IMG/VR virus record: IMGVR_UViG_3300030101_002651
Span: 1-34,395 of that record
DNA length: 34,395 nucleotides
DNA from: a virus
Direction: 5' to 3' (one strand)
In this document: positions 3,440 to 31,323 of the stretch, piece after piece
How positions within the stretch are numbered: position 1 is the first letter of the stretch
Layout of the letters: each line of letters opens with the position of its first letter
The notes under the pieces: generated by a model
The model's input: only the letters and a program-made list of their open reading frames with translations
What the model was told of the DNA's origin: nothing
Database searches by the model: none
Made by a program: the position numbers and the translations under genes

Positions 3440-5911
3440 CTACCTACCCGTAACGCCCAGGATGTTAGGGGCTCTGTCGGGTTGTGCTTGACCTGGACGC
3501 CACCAATACTCCTGGTCGTACTCTCTCATCCGGCGTTTCTCTATGCGTCTAAAGCGCCGGTAAGCATCTGGGTCTGACATGAGGCGCAACTGATCCAGGA
3601 TGGTCCTCTCTATTGCTAGGCGCAGATACCAGGTCGAGGCACCGGGCATGTTCCTGCCGAAGAAGTCCACCGCCTCTTTGCCGGCGTTGGTGTCTTTCCC
3701 CTGGACCAGTTCCATCACGTTACCGATAGTCAGTTTTCGTAGATCGTTAAGGAAACCAACCCTGGGGCCAGCAATCGTCTCCGACAGTCCTCCGCCAAAG
3801 CGGTTGACGCTAGAGAACAGGAAGTCGCCAAAGATGCCGATGCCGCCACCAGTCAGGAGGGCGTTGCCCCAAAACTCAGGCGTGTCCATTGCGAGAGGGT
3901 CACGGCCTTTGGATATCTCACGCACCTGGATAGACAGAGCGGCCATCGCTGTGGATGTAATCAGGAGGTCAGCAGCAATCCCGGCCTTACGCCTGGCACC
4001 CTTCTGATACACCGCGGCCTTGATGTTGTTCATGTAGAAAGTGACAGGGAAACTCTTGAACATGGCAAACGACCTGGCAATCTCACCAACCAGGGTGCCG
4101 GCCTTTGTGCCACCGACCAGAGCGGTCCTGCCTCTTACTGACGCAACAGGTACAGCCAGGTTGGTCATGCCCTGGACCATCTCCAGCATCTTGAACGCCA
4201 GTTCGCGGTCAGTCTCCATCATCTCATCAGGGCGCAGAAACTTAGCCCCTTTGAAGTCGTACTGCTCAAAGCCGGCCATCTTGGACCAGTCATCGGCAGA
4301 GATGCCGTATCTATCCAGGGTCTGGCGGAAAGCGGTGTTGAGTTGTGCATAGGGCGTCTTGGCGTTGTCCGCGATGAAGCCCATGAACTCCATGCCGAAA
4401 GCCCAACGGCCGGCCTGGGTGAATGGCGACAGCAGGGAGATGTTCATAGCCACGTTGGATATGGCCTCAGTCACATTCGGGCCCAGGACATCGTTGGCGT
4501 AGCGTGACTGACCATAAGCCACAGACGACCAGTTCTCTGCCACCAGGCCCATCCTGATAGCTTGCTGCTTGGTCATCTTGCCGGCGGTCATCATGGCAAA
4601 AGACTTTTGCATTGAGGAGCGGAGGAGGGGCATACCAGCCATCCGCTTGGCAATCCTGGTGAAGTTCGGGTCCGTAGCGATGGCCAGGATCGAAGTCGAG
4701 CCCAGATAGGCAGAGGTCAGAAGATTGCCCAGGCCGGCAAAAGACCTGGCCACTGTGCCATTCACTGGCGCATGAGACTTGCCGGTGATGTAGTCATACA
4801 TCTCATCGAACTTGTTATGACGGCCCACTAGCTTGGCTGACTGCTTGTCATTGCCCTTTGCGGCGTCAATCTCTTTGGCTTGCTTTTGCGTCTGTGTCTT
4901 GAGGAACTTGACCGTCGATGTCGGGTTCGGGCCCAGGATTTCGAGCAGAGCCACATCCCTGGCCATACCGTCAATGTGGTTCATCATGATGGAGAAGGTG
5001 TCACCACCGCCAAAGCTGTCCTGGTACTTGAGCCAGTTGTCTGCGCTGTTGAACACCAGGAAACGATGATCCTGGCGGCGACGGGCTAGAGACTTGCCCT
5101 GGCCACCGACAGAACTCTCCTTGACCTTGGCAAAGCCCTCAGTGGCGATGGTCTCCCATATCTCATCCAGGGCATCCTCAAAGTCCACATCGTTCATCGG
5201 CTTGCCGGTCTTGAAGCTGACCATCTTCTCCTGGTCCAGGAGCGGCCTGATAAACTTCTTCCACTCAACCCTGCCGGCCTTTCGTATAGCCGCGTTGTCA
5301 TGGACCTGGGGCATCCCCCAATCACTGCGCTTGGGGATATCACCGCCGGCCTTGTTGAAAGAGACCCGCAGGAATTCCGATGCCTTCTCCCAAGCCTGGG
5401 CCAGTTCTCGTGCCGCCTGGTCGCCCGTGTTTTCTTTGAATATCTCGCGGACCATGTTTTGCGATGTTGCTTTGGACTTGCGTGTTGTGCGGCCCAGGAC
5501 CTGGGTCTTCTTTAACTGAGCAATCACATTGTCCATGAGGGCATGAGCCATACCCCGGACAGCGGCCTGACGGGCTGACACATTGGAGTAGGGGCTCCGG
5601 CCGGTGCCATCACGCTCCAGGAGAGAGATCATGGCCTCGCCAGGATCGTTGCCTTTGAACTCGCCCAGGTTGTTGAGGACGCGGCGTTGAGTGGCCCGTT
5701 GCAGGATCATGCGGCGCTTCTTCTGCTTCGCCTCATACTCCAGGACATCGAAGGTATCACGACCAGCCTGGGCGTCAGCTTCGGCCGGGCCCATCTGCCT
5801 GGCCCGGTTCTCTGCCTTAAACTCACTAAACATCTGCCTGGCACGACTTGCCTGGGGGCCGGTCAGGGTGCCCTCTTTCTCAGCGTTTGCGATACAATCC
5901 AACAGGCTCAT
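3440..5911 (-). CDS. Large internal/ejected virion protein (823 aa)
   Basis: The gene lies directly before the tail fibre gene and after two other long internal proteins, the place where T7-like phages carry their largest core protein (gp16). I see no transglycosylase motif, so the role as an ejected channel or core protein rests on position and size. The N-terminal third is charged and helical (KQKKRRMILQRATQRRV). A stretch with NLLTSAYLGSTSILAIATDP near residue 400 is hydrophobic and could insert into a membrane. I chose ATG 5911 over GTG 5920 because GAGAGGG sits 8 nt before it and ATGA overlaps the stop of the upstream gene, a sign of coupled translation. Confidence 0.75.
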   Translation of the reverse strand: MSLLDCIANAEKEGTLTGPQASRARQMFSEFKAENRARQMGPAEADAQAGRDTFDVLEYEAKQKKRRMILQRATQRRVLNNLGEFKGNDPGEAMISLLERDGTGRSPYSNVSARQAAVRGMAHALMDNVIAQLKKTQVLGRTTRKSKATSQNMVREIFKENTGDQAARELAQAWEKASEFLRVSFNKAGGDIPKRSDWGMPQVHDNAAIRKAGRVEWKKFIRPLLDQEKMVSFKTGKPMNDVDFEDALDEIWETIATEGFAKVKESSVGGQGKSLARRRQDHRFLVFNSADNWLKYQDSFGGGDTFSIMMNHIDGMARDVALLEILGPNPTSTVKFLKTQTQKQAKEIDAAKGNDKQSAKLVGRHNKFDEMYDYITGKSHAPVNGTVARSFAGLGNLLTSAYLGSTSILAIATDPNFTRIAKRMAGMPLLRSSMQKSFAMMTAGKMTKQQAIRMGLVAENWSSVAYGQSRYANDVLGPNVTEAISNVAMNISLLSPFTQAGRWAFGMEFMGFIADNAKTPYAQLNTAFRQTLDRYGISADDWSKMAGFEQYDFKGAKFLRPDEMMETDRELAFKMLEMVQGMTNLAVPVASVRGRTALVGGTKAGTLVGEIARSFAMFKSFPVTFYMNNIKAAVYQKGARRKAGIAADLLITSTAMAALSIQVREISKGRDPLAMDTPEFWGNALLTGGGIGIFGDFLFSSVNRFGGGLSETIAGPRVGFLNDLRKLTIGNVMELVQGKDTNAGKEAVDFFGRNMPGASTWYLRLAIERTILDQLRLMSDPDAYRRFRRIEKRRMREYDQEYWWRPGQAQPDRAPNILGVTGR

Positions 5912-8046
5912 ACTACGCACCCTCTCAGTCGATCCAGCATCCGCTCATCTTGAGCCAGTTCGGCTTTGATTTGTCGGCCGGTCATCTCAACAGGCACGAC
6001 CTCATCACCGGCCACCATGTCGATGGTCAGGGTCTCGTCGTCAGGCATGTTGTCGAAGTCTGTGTCCCTGGCCACTTGCTCAATGGTGTTGGGCACCTCC
6101 GCTTCCTGGAAGGTGGTTTCCTGGGGTAAGGGCCGCGTGTCAGGGGGGTCTAGGGGCTCGTCTGGTAAGAGACCCCTGTCGAGGTTAGCTGTCGCCTCAT
6201 CGGCGCGATTTAGGTGGTCGAAGAGCCTTTCGACTTGCCGAGCAACCTCTTCATCCGGGCTTGCCCCTCCGGGCTGTCCGCGTAGTCCGCTATCCTCTGG
6301 TCCGCTTGCTCGAAGTTGTAGGTCGACCCCTTCAAGGAGTTGTCCGGTGTCTTCGATGACGGGCTTGGGTTGGCCCCTTTGCCCGTTGTTGTCGATGTGC
6401 GTGTAGCCATCTGCAAGTCCTTCCTTCTTGAGTATATTATAGGTATTCATCGGCCCATCGCCAACCTCCTTAATATACTCCAGGGGTATGTAGCGGCCCG
6501 TATTGAGGAACCGCATAAACATTCTGTTACGGGCATTGATGTAGCTGACATCCATGCCAACCAGGTCAACCTTGTAACCGTTGGCCTTCAGCTTTTTGAT
6601 AATACGCTGGATAGTAGCTGGCTTACCGCCAACCTTTGGGATGACCATGTTGATGCCTTCATCCAGGGCCTTGGCCATGACGACCTCTGCCAGGAAGCCG
6701 CTTTCCTCATGAACGGCTGTAGCACCGGCACCATCGTTGAACTCAGGCAGCAGCTTCTTGGCCTCATCCGGGTCAATAATTGCCGCGCCATATCTCCTGG
6801 CGATTGGGTTGGCGATACTAGACTTGCCGGCAGCAGGGGGGCCAAGAATGATGATGGCCTTCTTATCAAACTGCGAAGGAGCGTCAGGGACGGGCATCTT
6901 GTCGTCTACAAAGCCAAGCACCCTGGCGTCGTCGTAAAGCCGCTGTATGGCGCTCTCGTAGCCAGTAAAGGTATCTCCAGTCCTGGGGTCATTGAAGGTC
7001 CGCTCTGTGTCCCATTTGATCGACCCGTAGTCTGGTGCGTTGACTGTCTCAGGTATCGCTTTCAGTGCTGCATCTGCCTGGCGGATCGCCTCGTTGTTCA
7101 TTAGCACCGCGTCATCGACATTGTTGTTGAGGTCTTCGACTAGCTTGATCTGAGCCGGAGTTGCCTCATCTGGCGCGGTGAAGGTCTCCGGGATGTCAGT
7201 CGTTAGCGCATCAAAGTCGTCCAGGGCGTCGATGGCCAGATCAGCCTCACGGGCAGGGATGGCATTGCCGCGGAATAGTTCCAGGCCCTTACGCACCTGG
7301 TCAGTGGTCATAGCCACACCCTTACCAGCGCCCATTAGGACAGGGGGCAGACCAGCACCAATGACGCCACCGATACCGATGTTGATGAGCATTTGCTCAT
7401 AGGAATAGTCCAGGCCCAGGGACTGATACCACTCCCGCACCCCAGGCTGGAGGATCGCCTCAGTGCCGGCACCAATCAGGCCCTCTGCCAACATAGCGCC
7501 ACCTAGCTTTCTGTGCCGCATAAAGGCCATCGGCCCCATCATAACCATCTGGTCCAGGAAGGCCTGGTCTGTGAAAACACCACCACCCTGGCCAATGAAG
7601 CCGCCTACCTTGCCCATAGTCGTCTCACGGCTTCTGGCTTCTTCTCCTGCCTCAATCGCAGCCAGGGCTTGCTCTTTGATCCTGGCGTCCAGGGTTGAGC
7701 GGGACAGGTCAGAAAACTCAGGATAGAGTTCGCGGTTCTCATCCAAGTGCGTAAACAGCTTTTCTAAGGACTGCGCTCTCGACCTGTCACTGTGCCCCAT
7801 CGAATCGGACGCACCAAAGTATCTGCCAGGATTAGAGAAGGTCAGGCCCTGGCGCTCACTGATCGCGTCAATCAGGGGCTGCAACTCTTCGCTCATGAGA
7901 TCAGTGTAGGTGTCGATATTGGAGCCGCGGACCTGGGCCTCATACGCCGCGCCCATAGCATCGAAGAAGCCCAACTCCTCTCCACCAAATCCAAAGGGCG
8001 TATCTCCGACGCCAGTGTTGTAATACTGGTCGAAGAAGATGCTCAT
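5908..8046 (-). CDS. Internal virion protein with embedded zeta-toxin-like kinase domain
   Basis: This 712-residue protein is in the cluster of three long virion proteins that overlap each other by 4 bp. Residues 1-260 are structural-looking, with Gly-rich hydrophobic helices (about 145-160, 180-200 and 220-245) that could cross a membrane. Residues 395-555 look like a zeta/PezT-type P-loop kinase: Walker A GPPAAGKSS at 402-410, IDPDEAKKLLPEF at 424-436, HEES at 446-449, and an Arg-rich lid NARNRMFMRFLNTGRYIP. All residues expected for activity in that family seem present. The C-terminal 150 residues are acidic and low in complexity. Zeta toxins phosphorylate UDP-N-acetylglucosamine. I infer that this kinase may be carried in the particle and ejected into the host. 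The family call for the rest of the protein is unknown. Confidence 0.78.
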   Translation of the reverse strand: MSIFFDQYYNTGVGDTPFGFGGEELGFFDAMGAAYEAQVRGSNIDTYTDLMSEELQPLIDAISERQGLTFSNPGRYFGASDSMGHSDRSRAQSLEKLFTHLDENRELYPEFSDLSRSTLDARIKEQALAAIEAGEEARSRETTMGKVGGFIGQGGGVFTDQAFLDQMVMMGPMAFMRHRKLGGAMLAEGLIGAGTEAILQPGVREWYQSLGLDYSYEQMLINIGIGGVIGAGLPPVLMGAGKGVAMTTDQVRKGLELFRGNAIPAREADLAIDALDDFDALTTDIPETFTAPDEATPAQIKLVEDLNNNVDDAVLMNNEAIRQADAALKAIPETVNAPDYGSIKWDTERTFNDPRTGDTFTGYESAIQRLYDDARVLGFVDDKMPVPDAPSQFDKKAIIILGPPAAGKSSIANPIARRYGAAIIDPDEAKKLLPEFNDGAGATAVHEESGFLAEVVMAKALDEGINMVIPKVGGKPATIQRIIKKLKANGYKVDLVGMDVSYINARNRMFMRFLNTGRYIPLEYIKEVGDGPMNTYNILKKEGLADGYTHIDNNGQRGQPKPVIEDTGQLLEGVDLQLRASGPEDSGLRGQPGGASPDEEVARQVERLFDHLNRADEATANLDRGLLPDEPLDPPDTRPLPQETTFQEAEVPNTIEQVARDTDFDNMPDDETLTIDMVAGDEVVPVEMTGRQIKAELAQDERMLDRLRGCVV

Positions 8047-10649
8047 GGTTGGGCTCTCTTCAGATCAATCAGATAAGGCTGACCATTCGGCGCGAACAGG
8101 ACTTCGCCCTTGTAGGCCATCTTGTAGAGGCCATCGCCAACAGAGATCAGGTTGGCCCTTTGCACGACGGACAGAGGCACAGCTTGCTGGTTCAGCACAC
8201 CAACCGGCAACTCATCGTAGGGCCTCATCTGACCGTCAGGGCCCTGGGTGACAGCTATAGCAGTGAGGTCATTCACGCTTTCCATATTGTCGAATATTTC
8301 ATCGACGCCATCGTCTGCCTTGATGCTCGACGGGATGATGATGTTGCGGCCGTTGTAGGTCACAATCCCGCCACGTTCTTCACCGTTGATGACTTGGCGT
8401 CCAGCAGCTAGTTGCAGGGCCTCATTGTAGAGGTCCCGATCAAAGACGCCCCCGGCGCTGCCACCCTTGCCCAGGTAGATGAGGTCAGCCACAGACTTAA
8501 GCCGGTCAATCGCCCTGTCCATCGGTGGACTACCGGACAAGCCGTCAAACAGGGTGACGCGCTGGTCACGCATGTCTGTCATCTCGCCCAGGGCGCGATC
8601 CTCTTTGCCGGCCTTTATGCCCCGCCCACGCATCGCAGCTTGAATTGTCGCTTCATCCGCACCGAGAACCATCATGCCGCCGATGTGAGCCAGTTCCGGG
8701 GCGTCTTTGCTAATCTGCCCCAGGACCACCAGTGCATCCTGGCCAAAAGCAGTGGACAGTTTGTTGAGCGTTACCGTCTGTAGTTCGACAGGCATCTCCT
8801 CCAAGGCCGTAGCCAGGGCAGTGGCCTCAGACTTTGTGAGGATTGTCTTCGGTGTGCCGTAATGCGCCGAGACTTTGTTAGCGTCTTTGACCCGTGCCTC
8901 AACCGCTGTTGCGATATCGGTTGCCTGGCTGTCAGGGCTCAACACCGTTTCCACCAGGTCAACGCCGAGGGCCACGACGCCAGAGCCATTCCCCCAGGAC
9001 AGTGGGTCATCCTTGAGCCCTGTCTCCATAGCCGTGAGCCGTTGCTCCATCAGCGCCAGGAACTCACTTTCATCGGCAGAGTAACCGCCATCGCGTTGGC
9101 GCAGAGTATTGATCTTGTCCTCTAGCGTCATGGTGCTGTCGTTGGCGATATCGTTGAACAACTCTGACATAGCAGTCAGCCTGGCCACATCGCTCCGCAG
9201 CGCAGCCACCATATCTTTGGGCGCACCTTCAGCCTCTAGCTTGTTGATGCCGTCATTGATCGCAGCGACATCCTCATCCCGGATCGGGTCAAACCTCTTG
9301 ACCACTTTCTCCAGCGCATCAACGCTTCTGCCAATGCTTGTAGCCGTCGCCTTCAAAGCCGCGTTATCGGATCTTTCGTCAGATGCCATAGCTGCCAGGC
9401 GAGACTTGACGATCTTGAGCCGCAAGACATCCTCTGGTGTGCCAGCCTCTTCAGCACCCATGCGGTTAGTGATGGTGTCACGCTCCTGCCGCAGTTCTTC
9501 CAGGTTAAATCCCTGGATGCCGCGGAAGTATTCGATGTGGCTCTCTGCTGTAGCCAGGCGCTCTTTGACCTCTGCCAGCCTGGCCTTGTCTGCGCCGGCA
9601 TCTTCCAGGGCGTCAATCCTGGCCCTCATCTTGTCGATGACCGCAGTCGAGGGGATGCCCCCGGCCGACACAACAGTAGAGACCTCATAGTTCAAGTCAG
9701 CCTTGAGATTAGCAATCTCAGAGTTAAGTGCAGAGATGTCAGAGTTGGCAGCAGTGCGGAAGTTCCGCACCAGGGTCTGAGCGTTGTCGTCAGAGATGCC
9801 ACGGGCCAGGCCACCATCCTTGCCAATGTCAGCCTCAAGTCGGTCAGCGTACTCCAGTCTCTCCTCTGGTGTCTCAAGCCTGTCAAAGCCACCGCGCACT
9901 CTAGCAATCTGGGCTTTGCGATTAGCGCGGATCATGGCATCCGCGACTTCTTCTTCATTGTACCCCTGGGCCCGGAGCATAGCGCCTATGGCCTCAACGC
10001 CCTGGTCGATATCTTTGTTGATGACCGCATCAGACATGCCCGACCTGGCCAGATTCTCCAGGCTTTCGGTCATAGTCTCCAGGTTCAACGCACCCTGGGC
10101 CCGGTTCTCCTGCTTCTTCTTCTTGATGTGATCCTCAGAATAGTTGAGGAACTGAGCGTTGCGGTAGCTGTCCAGAGTGAGGCTGACTTCCTGGGCCGCG
10201 GCCGGGTCCATCATGCCCAGAGCATCGGAGAAGCCGAGCGTCACCATATCCAGTCGCTCTGCCAACTGCGTGGGGTCTTCACCAGCCTCAATCGCTTCCA
10301 GGTACTGCTTGCCCATCTCGCGCTTGGCTTCGACTTCGATCTCTGCACTCAATCCTTTGACCGCGGCATTGTAAGCAGCAGCCTCGCCAGCATTGAAGCT
10401 GGCAGGGTCTTGGTCCTGGAGTTGGGTCAGTGTCCTGGTCGGATCAGACGCGCCGAGCATTGAGCCCTGGAGAGTGTTCCGTCGCTCCACCTCTTTGAAG
10501 GCAAAGCTAGAGATACGGTCCATCGCCCTGGCCATTGCCTCAGATGTACGCGCAGCCTCACGACCAGCAGCCATGTCGATGCGGGGCACATCTCCTGTAC
10601 CAACTGTTTGGATGGGGGCAGAGGCCAGTCTTTCAAACAGTTCTGACAT
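8043..10649 (-). CDS. Large internal virion protein, coiled-coil rich (T7 gp15 position)
   Basis: This 868-residue protein is dominated by charged helices with heptad-like Leu/Ala spacing from about 40 to 520 (for example LEDAGADKARLAEVKERLAT). A more mixed C-terminal domain follows, ending PNGQPYLIDLKRAQP. There is no signal peptide or clear enzyme motif. It starts TGATG-overlapped with the gp14-like gene and ends ATGA-overlapped with the zeta-domain gene, so the three are one translational unit. Order and size match the T7 internal core set gp14-gp15-gp16, whose proteins are ejected and form a conduit through the cell envelope. The assignment is by position and architecture. Confidence 0.72.
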   Translation of the reverse strand: MSELFERLASAPIQTVGTGDVPRIDMAAGREAARTSEAMARAMDRISSFAFKEVERRNTLQGSMLGASDPTRTLTQLQDQDPASFNAGEAAAYNAAVKGLSAEIEVEAKREMGKQYLEAIEAGEDPTQLAERLDMVTLGFSDALGMMDPAAAQEVSLTLDSYRNAQFLNYSEDHIKKKKQENRAQGALNLETMTESLENLARSGMSDAVINKDIDQGVEAIGAMLRAQGYNEEEVADAMIRANRKAQIARVRGGFDRLETPEERLEYADRLEADIGKDGGLARGISDDNAQTLVRNFRTAANSDISALNSEIANLKADLNYEVSTVVSAGGIPSTAVIDKMRARIDALEDAGADKARLAEVKERLATAESHIEYFRGIQGFNLEELRQERDTITNRMGAEEAGTPEDVLRLKIVKSRLAAMASDERSDNAALKATATSIGRSVDALEKVVKRFDPIRDEDVAAINDGINKLEAEGAPKDMVAALRSDVARLTAMSELFNDIANDSTMTLEDKINTLRQRDGGYSADESEFLALMEQRLTAMETGLKDDPLSWGNGSGVVALGVDLVETVLSPDSQATDIATAVEARVKDANKVSAHYGTPKTILTKSEATALATALEEMPVELQTVTLNKLSTAFGQDALVVLGQISKDAPELAHIGGMMVLGADEATIQAAMRGRGIKAGKEDRALGEMTDMRDQRVTLFDGLSGSPPMDRAIDRLKSVADLIYLGKGGSAGGVFDRDLYNEALQLAAGRQVINGEERGGIVTYNGRNIIIPSSIKADDGVDEIFDNMESVNDLTAIAVTQGPDGQMRPYDELPVGVLNQQAVPLSVVQRANLISVGDGLYKMAYKGEVLFAPNGQPYLIDLKRAQP

Positions 10650-11200
10650 CAGCGTAGCTCATACATTGTATAGCTAGAGTTTCCGACAGATGGCGCTGGC
10701 TTGGGGTTTGTGAAACTAAACGCGCCAGTCTGATCTGCCATGTAAGCCGCCTCGCCAATACTGGCGACAGCATTGATGTAGCCCTGACGACGGGCCATGT
10801 TGCCAGCAGCCACATACTGAGCGGACTGGATCGCACCACCAGCCTCAATGATTTGTCCCTGGAGTTGCATCAACTCCTGGTTCTCTTTGCTTGTGAAAAA
10901 GTCTGTTACGCCTTTGCCCAGGTTGTAGATGGCAAGGTTGGCCACTGATCCAGAGAAGGGGTCGATAGAACCGGCCGCAGCCCGTGCGTTAATTGTTGAC
11001 AGGTTCTGAGCGATCTTCTTGAGGACCTGGATGCCCTGACGCTTGTGATTCAGCGTCTCAGACCTGGTACGCAACATGCCGGCCCTGGCTTGCATCTCTG
11101 CTTGCTTGGCTTGCATGTTGTACATTTGCTGTTGGGCTTTCGCCATCTGCATCTGCTGGATGGCACCAAAGACTTTAGACCCTATCGCTATAGCTTCCAT
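10649..11200 (-). CDS. Internal virion protein, T7 gp14-like
   Basis: This 183-residue protein has an N-terminal hydrophobic helix (IGSKVFGAIQQMQMAKAQQQ) and a long Gln/Ala/Met-rich helix (QAKQAEMQARAGMLRTRSE). A Gly/Ala segment follows with SGSVANLAIYNLGKGV, and then repeated helices with QYVAAGNMARRQGYINAV. This composition and length are typical of gp14-type core proteins of T7-like phages, which insert into the host outer membrane after ejection. It lies between tail tube B and the gp15-position protein, as expected. Confidence 0.75.
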   Translation of the reverse strand: MEAIAIGSKVFGAIQQMQMAKAQQQMYNMQAKQAEMQARAGMLRTRSETLNHKRQGIQVLKKIAQNLSTINARAAAGSIDPFSGSVANLAIYNLGKGVTDFFTSKENQELMQLQGQIIEAGGAIQSAQYVAAGNMARRQGYINAVASIGEAAYMADQTGAFSFTNPKPAPSVGNSSYTMYELR

Positions 11201-28166: not shown

Positions 28167-28378
28167 TGAAAATCACCAGACTGAAGAAGGGCTATGTGAT
28201 CCGCGTGACCGACACTGAGTTCAGCGTCCTGGATATCACAATGCAGGAAGGCAGAGGCTCTGGCATGTGGGTCGACGAAGATAACGGCCATATGAAGCCA
28301 GCCGAGCAGCGGATCATCACCGAGGTCAACACAAACAAGCGCGACTGGATGGTCGTCACAGAAGACAGGAGAGGGTGA
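28166..28378 (+). CDS. Small hypothetical protein (70 aa)
   Basis: The product starts MKITRLKKGYVIRVTDTEFS and has four likely beta strands (GYVIRV, FSVLDI, GMWVDE, DWMVVT). It may be a small beta barrel. No family recognised. It ends TGATG-overlapped with the serine recombinase gene. Confidence 0.6.
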   Translation: MKITRLKKGYVIRVTDTEFSVLDITMQEGRGSGMWVDEDNGHMKPAEQRIITEVNTNKRDWMVVTEDRRG

Positions 28379-29070
28379 TGGCACCCCATAGCGGCAAATT
28401 CATCGCCTATCTCAGGGTCTCGACCCAACGCCAGGGCCAGTCGGGCCTTGGCATAGAGGCGCAGCGCGAGATCATCAACAACCATCTCAATGGTGGTGAG
28501 TGGGATGTGATCGCTGAATACACTGAGACAGAGAGTGGCAAGCGGTCTGACCGCCATCGCCGCCAACTCAAAGCCGCTCTCCAACAATGTAAAGCAGAGA
28601 ACGCCACGCTGATCATAGCCAGGGTTGACCGTCTGACCCGTAACCTGGCGTTCCTGACCGCGCTCTTGGAATCGGGTGTCCAGGTCATCGCTTGTGACAT
28701 CCCTCAGATGCACTCACCAGCCGCCACCAAGTTCGTCCTGCAACTCATGGCCAATATCGCAGAGTATGAGGGCGAACTGATCTCAGAGCGTACCAAGAAG
28801 GCTCTCGCGGCCAAGAAGGCGAGGGGCCACAAGCTAGGCACCCCAACCCCAGAGAAGGGCGCAAAGGCCGGCGGTGCGGCCACAAAGGCCAGCATTGACG
28901 AATGGACCGAGGAGTTACGACCCATCGTCCAGGAACTCCGCACATATGGATGCGACACCCTGGAGAAGATGGGCAAGGGATTAGAGGCCAGGGGGGCTAG
29001 GACCTTCCGCGGCAACACAACCTGGGCACTGAGCAGTGTCCGCAACCTGGTAAAGAGGATTGAGGGATGA
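28378..29070 (+). CDS. Serine recombinase (resolvase/invertase family)
   Basis: This 230-residue protein has the catalytic N-terminal domain of serine recombinases: FIAYLRVSTQRQGQSGLGIE with R13 and nucleophile S15, and DRLTRN at 84-89 with the active-site Asp and Arg residues. The long helix FVLQLMANIAEYEGELISER continues to KKARGHKLGTPTP, and a short C-terminal helix-turn-helix (TLEKMGKGLEARGARTFRGN) follows. It is too short for a large phage integrase and resembles small resolvases found in many bacteria and phages. It could integrate the phage, resolve multimers or invert DNA. ATG 28378 has AGGAGAGGG before it. It is ATGA-coupled to a winged-helix regulator. Confidence 0.85.
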   Translation: MAPHSGKFIAYLRVSTQRQGQSGLGIEAQREIINNHLNGGEWDVIAEYTETESGKRSDRHRRQLKAALQQCKAENATLIIARVDRLTRNLAFLTALLESGVQVIACDIPQMHSPAATKFVLQLMANIAEYEGELISERTKKALAAKKARGHKLGTPTPEKGAKAGGAATKASIDEWTEELRPIVQELRTYGCDTLEKMGKGLEARGARTFRGNTTWALSSVRNLVKRIEG

Positions 29071-30068: not shown

Positions 30069-30347
30069 ATGGAAAGACAGGTGGATACAATGGGCAAACC
30101 TGAAGATATGTCGCATAATGTATATAGTGACAAGCGAGTTGCTAACCGCAACATCTTGAATCATATAATCAATTCAACTTACCACAGTAACTTAACTGAC
30201 CTAACTGAGAAGCGTTACACGATCAAGCAGATTTTCACCTTCCTGGGCGAACTGTTTGCGGCGTTTCTGCTCTTCGGCGGCGCTATCTATCTGATCTCTA
30301 TCTCAGATGCCCTTGACCAGCATATGCTGGAATTTCTGGGGCGTTAA
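30069..30347 (+). CDS. Small membrane protein (92 aa)
   Basis: The protein starts MERQVDTMGKPEDMSHNVYS. Residues about 60-85, IFTFLGELFAAFLLFGGAIY, form one transmembrane helix near the C-terminus. The soluble front part is polar. No family recognised; early phage membrane proteins often exclude other phages or alter host transport, but nothing here proves that. GGAG lies 8 nt before ATG 30069. The exonuclease gene follows after one base. Confidence 0.58.
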   Translation: MERQVDTMGKPEDMSHNVYSDKRVANRNILNHIINSTYHSNLTDLTEKRYTIKQIFTFLGELFAAFLLFGGAIYLISISDALDQHMLEFLGR

Positions 30348-30348
30348 G

Positions 30349-31323
30349 ATGGTCGGTAAAATTACAAGCGATGCCAAGCTGACTGGCCACACTGCTCCGG
30401 TGCTGATGGGTGAGAGCCCGTATATGTACCCAAACGATCTCATTGCAAAAATTCTTAACGCGCAGGGCAGGGGAAACTATCAGACAGATACGTTCTCCGG
30501 CAACGAAGCCACAGAGTTGGGCAACGATCTGGAGCCCTTCATCATCGGCAAGTGTGCCCAGCGTTTGGGCTTTGACAAGTACAACGATGAGATCACCAAG
30601 GTCTATGCCTATGAGGATTTGTTTGAGGTCAGCCTGGACGCCATCATCTTCAACGACAGCAAGACGATCCATGCCAGTGACAGCATCAAGCTGATGAATG
30701 GCCAGGAGAGTATGACGCTAAAGGGGAATGGGGTGGTAGAGAGCAAACTTACCTCTGCGCCATACACAGATGTCCCGCCCCCATACCGCGGCCCCAGGCA
30801 GTTGGACATGCAGATGATGTGCTATGGCGCGAAGTGGGGCGTGATAGCCACGCTTTACCAGGGCACCCGCCTGGTCCTCTATGTCTATGAGGCAAACCAG
30901 GATCGCTTCGATGAACTGATTGACGCCGGCCGTGACTTCTACAGACGCCTGGACGGGCCTGAGTGGTATCCCGCTGTTGATGGTGTCGATGCAGCCAAGG
31001 TTCATAGCCAGGCTGATGACAGTCTGCCACCGATGGACCTGGAGCCAATCGCAGACCTGGCGATGACCTACTATGACGCCAGGAGAGCAGCGAAGGCAGC
31101 AGAGGCCCTGGCCAAGTCCATTGAGCCAAAGCTGATGGATGCCCTGGGCAACCATGAGAGTGGCATCTTGAATGATGAGTTGGGCAACCCGCTCTTTGAG
31201 TTGAAGTGGCCCACCAGGTCATTCAAGGCGCAGCCAGAGAAGGTGACGCCGGCCAAGCCGGCACGGGTTGAGCGTCAGAAGTCGCTGACAATCCCGGCCA
31301 AGTGGTTAGGAGACATGGCATGA
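30349..31323 (+). CDS. YqaJ / lambda-exonuclease-type recombination nuclease
   Basis: This 324-residue protein starts MVGKITSDAKLTGHTAPVLM. GESPYMYPNDLIAKIL and ELGNDLEPFIIGKCAQRLGF (E62) match the start of YqaJ-type nucleases. SLDAIIFND (D97) and VVESKLTSAPY (E131, K133) give the D...ExK metal site, and RGPRQLDMQMMCYGAKWGVI is the Gln helix. It chews 5' strands at DNA ends to allow annealing. An annealing partner (RecT, Bet, Erf) is not obvious in the window; the SSB-like gene may replace it. The helical C-terminal part has Ala/Lys/Glu repeats. Confidence 0.83.
   Translation: MVGKITSDAKLTGHTAPVLMGESPYMYPNDLIAKILNAQGRGNYQTDTFSGNEATELGNDLEPFIIGKCAQRLGFDKYNDEITKVYAYEDLFEVSLDAIIFNDSKTIHASDSIKLMNGQESMTLKGNGVVESKLTSAPYTDVPPPYRGPRQLDMQMMCYGAKWGVIATLYQGTRLVLYVYEANQDRFDELIDAGRDFYRRLDGPEWYPAVDGVDAAKVHSQADDSLPPMDLEPIADLAMTYYDARRAAKAAEALAKSIEPKLMDALGNHESGILNDELGNPLFELKWPTRSFKAQPEKVTPAKPARVERQKSLTIPAKWLGDMA

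Follow-up and report, generated by a model that had tools for sequence, protein, structure and literature searches.

The 712-residue protein and its kinase domain

The stretch of DNA analysed here (the window) is a virus record of 34,395 bases from IMG/VR (IMGVR_UViG_3300030101_002651); it belongs to a short-tailed marine phage and carries a podophage-type gene block on its minus strand. We concentrate on one gene of this block, whose 712-residue product holds a zeta-type kinase between two conserved parts. An earlier note on this DNA had pointed to the motifs GPPAAGKSS, IDPDEAKKLLPEF and HEES in this protein, together with an arginine-rich lid with GR.IP; all of them are present, with IDPDEAKKLLPEF occupying residues 424 to 436, and residues 395 to 555 correspond to window positions 6864 to 6382. 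The features of the protein and of its kinase are as follows (pLDDT, predicted local distance difference test).

5908 to 8046, minus strand: modular protein of 712 amino acids, composed of an N-terminal scaffold, a zeta-kinase cassette and a C-terminal scaffold (open reading frame, Pfam, comparison of orthologues)
6340 to 7059, minus strand: zeta-type kinase fold as predicted, residues 330 to 569 (pLDDT about 88; Z-scores of 16.2 to zeta, 15.0 to PezT and 14.3 to AvrRxo1)
6382 to 6879, minus strand: Pfam Zeta_toxin match, residues 390 to 555 (E-value 1.9e-21)
6817 to 6843, minus strand: Walker A motif GPPAAGKSS, residues 402 to 410, with K408 aligned to zeta K46 (profile alignment; Lys invariant in 19 of 19 members)
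6763 to 6777, minus strand: IDPDE, with D427 aligned to the zeta catalytic base D67 (profile alignment; invariant in 19 of 19)
6700 to 6711, minus strand: HEES, residues 446 to 449 (H446, E448 and S449; His, the second Glu and Ser invariant in 19 of 19)
6628 to 6639, minus strand: PKVG loop where zeta has EGTGR (E116 to R120); P470 and G473 invariant
6493 to 6525, minus strand: lid arginines R508, R512 and R518, with GRYIP (invariant in 19 of 19)

The kinship with zeta toxins that the earlier note had proposed is borne out by both profile search and structure prediction. The Pfam match to PF06414 scores 76.9 bits, above the curated cut-off of 22.3 bits, and is recovered at the DNA level as well, while a profile made from 19 phage relatives finds the zeta toxin (1gvn/3q8x) with an E-value of 3.2e-9 and PezT with one of 4.6e-4. 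In the structure model, which was computed by AlphaFold2 with 17 orthologues, pLDDT lies near 88 at residues 290 to 570, and the first Foldseek matches of the predicted kinase region are zeta toxin (3q8x/1gvn) and PezT. By structural alignment, residues 337/338 to 569 match zeta over 199 residues at 2.8 Å, and the AvrRxo1 structures (4z8q to 4z8v) fit the predicted kinase fold over 212 to 217 residues at a Z-score of about 14. The fold reaches N-terminally beyond the segment first noted, to about residue 330.

The Walker lysine, the catalytic aspartate and the three lid arginines are invariant in all 19 zeta members, at 43 to 77% identity, and the ratio of nonsynonymous to synonymous substitution rates (dN/dS) of the domain is 0.03 to 0.27, as computed for pairs with dS below 0.55 only. 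Other zeta domains, 27 to 31% identical to this one, occur in cyanophage PSS2, in the haloviruses HVTV-1 and HCTV-5, and in the Bacteroides phages DAC16 and kin; several of these proteins are annotated as head protein or zeta toxin, and the similarity to the PSS2 protein (NC_013021, 18809 to 19513) spans residues 347 to 566 of the window protein.

Exchange of the payload at a single slot

Comparison with related phages divides the 712-residue protein into a carrier and an exchangeable middle part.

7190 to 8046, minus strand: conserved, mostly helical N-terminal scaffold, residues 1 to about 286 (identity of orthologues, hydropathy); also present in phage SI2
6220 to 7189, minus strand: exchangeable cassette, residues about 287 to 609, across which DNA similarity to the relative L003 is lost
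5911 to 6219, minus strand: C-terminal scaffold tail, conserved and with MLDRLRGCVV at its end (95 to 100% DNA identity to L003; a related tail in complete orthologues)

Two scans, one with the whole protein and one with its N-terminal part, yielded the close relatives L001, L002, L003 and L013; a further scan, anchored on the downstream gene for a phrog_684 virion protein, gave the best 80 loci by similarity of the neighbouring gene. After removal of near-duplicates, and with L082 excluded as a different open reading frame, 45 non-redundant proteins including that of the window were retained. A search of genome contigs added just two weak relatives, both in alphaproteobacterial records. In nearly all loci of sufficient length, the open reading frame that overlaps or abuts the anchor has a related N-terminal start and a related tail, and complete orthologues measure from 399 to 1257 amino acids. 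At one and the same slot, 20 of the 45 proteins hold a zeta kinase, 20 a RelA/SpoT-type domain, five neither and none both; since the set was picked by neighbour-gene similarity, these counts do not represent frequencies in nature. The zeta and RelA/SpoT profiles were built from this same set, and their E-values measure consistency, with independent support coming from Pfam, PDB and fold comparisons. The five orthologues without a payload indicate that the carrier does not need one. L085 (4811 to 6010) represents the bare carrier, an orthologue of 399 residues with neither payload nor the ParB/DdrB-like ADGHQR domain that lies upstream of the payload position in 32 of the 45 proteins.

A clean exchange of the payload at this slot is observed in three close pairs. 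The window carries a zeta and L003 a RelA/SpoT domain, while 361 aligned residues of the neighbouring protein are identical; their DNA is 91% identical over 7.1 kb upstream and about 84% identical in the N-terminal part, is unrelated across window residues about 287 to 609, and is then 95% identical. The N-terminal scaffold as a whole is 89% identical to that of L003 and 60 to 63% identical to those of L001 and L002. L018 and L086, one with zeta and the other with RelA/SpoT, share 87% identity as far as residue about 324 and 75% from about 624 onward. In the third pair, L087 differs from L083 by an in-frame segment of 702 nucleotides that contains the RelA/SpoT domain, between flanks of 89% and 93% identity; the repeat GATGATA stands at both ends of this segment in L087 and as a single copy in L083. 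An assembly chimera as the source of the L003 exchange could be rejected, since the same arrangement recurs in two more close pairs and in another 19 RelA/SpoT orthologues; the ambiguous bases in the L003 gene fall outside the payload domain. A quick tree built from the downstream gene, with some long branches but independent of the payload, requires at least 13 changes of payload state, and eight between zeta and RelA/SpoT when empty slots are ignored. Because its relatives hold a different enzyme or none at the same place, the 712-residue protein has the look of a vehicle for interchangeable weapons that would enter with the viral DNA.

The alternative payload

By profile comparison and predicted fold, the alternative payload is a putative synthetase of the RelA/SpoT type, with the type VI toxin Tas1 as its nearest match. 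Tas1 (6ox6) is found with an E-value of 1.6e-5 by one member in a phmmer search against PDB sequences, and with an E-value of 6.4e-23 by profile; it is the first Foldseek match (E-value 1.4e-7), and the payload model superimposes on it with a Z-score of 15.1 over 162 residues at 2.5 Å. A Pfam search with the L003 payload gave no match, and Pfam RelA_SpoT matches two of 18 members, weakly. Over these 18, the residues D..R, D, G, E and K expected of RelA/SpoT synthetases are invariant. The dN/dS ratios of the domain, at 0.03 to 0.30 for pairs within the same dS limit, are as low as those of the kinase, and, given the invariant catalytic residues and this purifying selection in close pairs, both payloads appear to be kept as enzymes. 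The RelA/SpoT alignment lacks a stretch of sufficient conservation for a scan of viral contigs.

Within the 20 proteins of this class, L056, L073 and L075 deviate, with E-values of about 1e-5 to 1e-6 against the RelA/SpoT profile; in their segment at residues about 750 to 950, the motif EIQIW is replaced by VEWYLP, and they may represent a different or inactive subtype. Extra segments adjoin the RelA/SpoT domain in L027 (residues about 700 to 890), L047 (about 740 to 830, resembling a second ParB-like stretch), L057 and L058.

Gene neighbourhood and scaffold

Along the minus strand, the genes for terminase and portal are followed by one in scaffold position and then by those for capsid, tail-tube A and tail-tube B, a weakly gp14-like protein, an 868-residue protein, the 712-residue protein, the phrog_684 virion protein and the tail fibre. 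This order matches the ejection block of a podophage.

10649 to 11200, minus strand: gp14-like small internal protein, weak (phrog_418 internal virion protein, E-value 1.7e-4; Pfam T7_gp14, E-value 0.028, below cut-off)
8043 to 10649, minus strand: upstream large protein of 868 residues in gp15-like position (phrog_992 head protein, E-value 4e-8)
3440 to 5920, minus strand: downstream phrog_684 virion structural protein, the anchor for orthologous loci (E-value 7e-168)

By this order, the 712-residue protein would occupy the position of the third core protein, after two genes whose gp14-like and gp15-like matches are weak. The label of internal virion protein rests on this position, because the scaffold is without detectable similarity to gp16; it should be taken as a lead, not as proof. 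Profile comparison of the scaffold gave no signal for any of the candidate homologues T7 gp16, T7 gp15, phiV10p18/p19 and four HTVC010P proteins, and the only match among the phage proteins compared in this way was SI2 DVVG_00008, which shares the N-terminal part (E-value 1.8e-11), the ParB-like domain and the C-terminal part; this isolate's protein holds no payload. No MuF domain was found in the 712-residue protein with Pfam and PHROGs, and a tblastn search of phage records with the gp15-like neighbour gave no match. A Gly/Ala-rich hydrophobic stretch is seen in the hydropathy profile of the N-terminal scaffold at residues 219 to 238.

Between the window and L003, about the last 570 nucleotides of the gp15-like gene (8043 to 10649) differ strongly, the rest upstream being about 91% identical, and the C-terminal part of this neighbour may be a second variable segment. 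Elsewhere, on the plus strand, the window encodes a serine recombinase of the resolvase/invertase kind (28375 to 29070; PF00239, E-value 1.2e-28), a candidate integrase or DNA invertase, and a RecE-like exonuclease (30307 to 31323; phrog_434, E-value 1.1e-27).

Substrate and proposed mode of action

Zeta toxins contact UDP-N-acetylglucosamine (UDP-GlcNAc) through Asp67, Thr118, Arg120, Thr128 and Glu100, and a PezT variant with Val at the position equivalent to Thr118 is nontoxic (PMC3062530). When the 19 phage members are placed on this framework by profile alignment, the Thr118 position is Val in 17 of them (V, I or T overall), Arg120 is kept in none and replaced by Gly, Ser, His or Asp, Thr128 is not kept, and the Glu100 position is variable; the loop reads P-x-V-G where the zeta toxin has E-G-T-G. 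What the earlier note had described, a zeta-type kinase between structural parts in an ejection block, is upheld, and the catalytic residues of this kinase are intact. Its proposal of UDP-GlcNAc as the substrate is not supported by the contact residues, an argument that concerns the sequence alignment of one loop and not activity. AvrRxo1 is a zeta-fold enzyme that produces 3'-NADP (PMC5491322), and because its fold match to the model almost equals that of zeta, a nucleotide cofactor would be a fair alternative substrate.

We consider it probable, with some reserve, that the 712-residue protein is ejected as a core protein and, as the genome enters, delivers a nucleotide phosphotransferase that arrests growth. 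As the third, ejected core protein of the podophage, it would be packed in the head and cross the envelope alongside the DNA by means of its conserved N- and C-terminal carrier parts, and its middle would be the exchangeable enzyme payload, a zeta P-loop kinase here and a Tas1-like RelA/SpoT synthetase or nothing in sister phages. After ejection the payload would face the host cytoplasm, as has been proposed for the C-terminal part of T7 gp16 (PMC8954989), and would there use ATP to place phosphate, in the case of zeta, or pyrophosphate, in that of the RelA/SpoT type, on a small metabolite of nucleotide type, thereby slowing or reprogramming host growth during genome entry. Transfer of ATP phosphate groups to nucleotide-type molecules is established for zeta (PMC3062530) and Apk2 (PMC12226406); since both payloads would share this chemistry, either might hold back host metabolism or disturb a nucleotide-based defence at entry. 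The proposal takes homology, fold, catalytic residues, selection and exchange as observed above, and adds to them a putative packaging, delivery, substrate and effect. In favour of ejection we count the gene order and, in many orthologues, a DdrB/ParB-like domain of the sort that marks injected polyvalent proteins.

Several points weigh against it. The presence of the protein in virions is inferred; the scaffold showed no similarity to T7 gp16 (probability 0.1%) and no signal with phiV10p19 in profile comparison, and its N-terminal model is poor, with pLDDT at 30 to 40 for residues 158 to 251. Moreover, five of the 45 orthologues do without a payload, and all payload-bearing orthologues come from metagenome contigs.

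We tentatively put forward, as possible though by no means assured, a wider version in which, throughout this podophage group, one ejection protein would serve as universal launcher of interchangeable nucleotide-phosphotransferase warheads, the zeta warhead having a changed substrate (for instance nicotinamide adenine dinucleotide (NAD) or a nucleotide signal, and not UDP-GlcNAc) and hitting host metabolism or defence before phage gene expression.

Alternative explanations

The payloads might instead serve to disarm NAD- or nucleotide-based abortive defences at entry by modifying NAD or a nucleotide second messenger. The structural kinship with AvrRxo1 as a producer of 3'-NADP, the action of both alternative payloads on nucleotides, the rapid payload exchange that an arms race would fit, and the earlier proposal of polyvalent proteins as counters to host defences (PMC5512222) all speak for this; yet these are candidate substrates, and MuF Apk2, which is related to the alternative payload, represents growth-arresting toxins that make (p)ppApp. 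We hold an anti-defence function to be unlikely.

A true zeta toxin, which would phosphorylate the 3'-OH of UDP-GlcNAc, stop wall synthesis and thereby aid entry or kill rivals, appears rather improbable to us. Pfam and fold do place the kinase in a family whose tested members act in this way, and the same was proposed for the zeta domains of polyvalent proteins of the MuF and conjugative kinds (PMC5512222), but the replaced contacts (Val for Thr118 in 17 of 19 members, Arg120 replaced in all, Thr128 lost, Glu100 varying) and the close structural match to AvrRxo1, which acts on NAD, stand in the way.

We see a slim chance that the kinase is not delivered at all but acts late in the producing cell, in nucleotide metabolism or particle assembly, and is part of the gene merely by fusion. 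The gene does sit among late structural genes, and delivery presupposes a presence in the virion that is deduced; however, the payload lies inside the ejection-block protein across orthologues, and its free exchange for an unrelated enzyme or none disfavours an assembly role. A dead, purely structural domain, which the lost zeta substrate contacts might suggest, is very improbable in view of the catalytic Lys, Asp and lid Arg retained throughout the 19 members and the low dN/dS in close pairs. Finally, a toxin-antitoxin or prophage-maintenance module is barely credible: the zeta family is best known from such systems and a marine viral zeta homologue was previously interpreted so (PMC5332604), but the kinase sits within a protein of the structural block and, as the earlier note had remarked, no antitoxin gene adjoins it, the downstream virion gene overlapping or starting within 14 nucleotides in the loci read and the upstream gene overlapping.

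Relation to known systems

That zeta and RelA/SpoT domains occur in polyvalent and MuF phage proteins is already known. Iyer et al., in 2017, listed zeta-like kinase, RelA/SpoT and DdrB-like ParB among the domains of polyvalent proteins, for which they argued injection; zeta was described in conjugative elements and MuF fusions, and RelA/SpoT in spirochaete and epsilonproteobacterial (pro)phages and in MuF proteins (PMC5512222). The comparison with polyvalent proteins made in the earlier note is supported in that unrelated domains are combined in one protein encoded beside late virion genes, as scaffold and zeta in the window and as scaffold, ParB and zeta or RelA/SpoT in relatives; what differs is that a single carrier in a podophage ejection block alternates zeta and RelA/SpoT. 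MuF Apk2 is a (p)ppApp synthetase; immunity genes come after its gene in S. pneumoniae, and MuF carriers stem from temperate phages (Paulet et al., 2025; PMC12226406). It likewise combines a head-associated phage carrier with a variable toxin domain, whereas here the payload is internal, the C-terminal tail is common to the carriers and no immunity gene is adjacent.

With epsilon/zeta and PezAT (1gvn, 3q8x, 2p5t) the window kinase shares fold, Walker A motif, catalytic Asp and lid Arg, but it lacks the UDP-GlcNAc contacts and an antitoxin and is embedded in a larger protein. AvrRxo1, a zeta-like NAD kinase, is an effector that a plant pathogen secretes, and its likeness as seen here is structural. 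Tas1, the type VI (p)ppApp synthetase and, among solved structures, the nearest relative of the alternative payload, is delivered by a type VI system and accompanied by an immunity protein, whereas the payload here would be delivered by a phage. T7 gp14, gp15 and gp16 would correspond in gene order, though the gp14-like and gp15-like matches are weak, and the third core protein is variable in size, although no sequence similarity to gp16 is detectable in the scaffold.

Our search of the literature, which covered few subscription journals, did not find zeta or toxin domains described in internal virion or ejection proteins; nor did we find a previous description of one orthologous podophage ejection-block carrier that alternates between a zeta kinase, a Tas1-like synthetase and nothing.

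Implications

Viral zeta genes should be taken with caution as toxin-antitoxin evidence of lysogeny, as was done in PMC5332604. Internal virion protein genes have been reported in under-recruiting islands of marine phages with no explanation of the present kind (PMC3909814, PMC6487183, PMC10504331), and payload exchange may bear on such islands (PMC3909814, PMC6487183). Nature has here provided an experiment, in that near-identical phages carry different payloads, or an empty slot, at one position. With them, effector delivery by short-tailed phages becomes directly testable, and a tie is drawn to weapons of bacterial competition such as Tas1 and Apk2.
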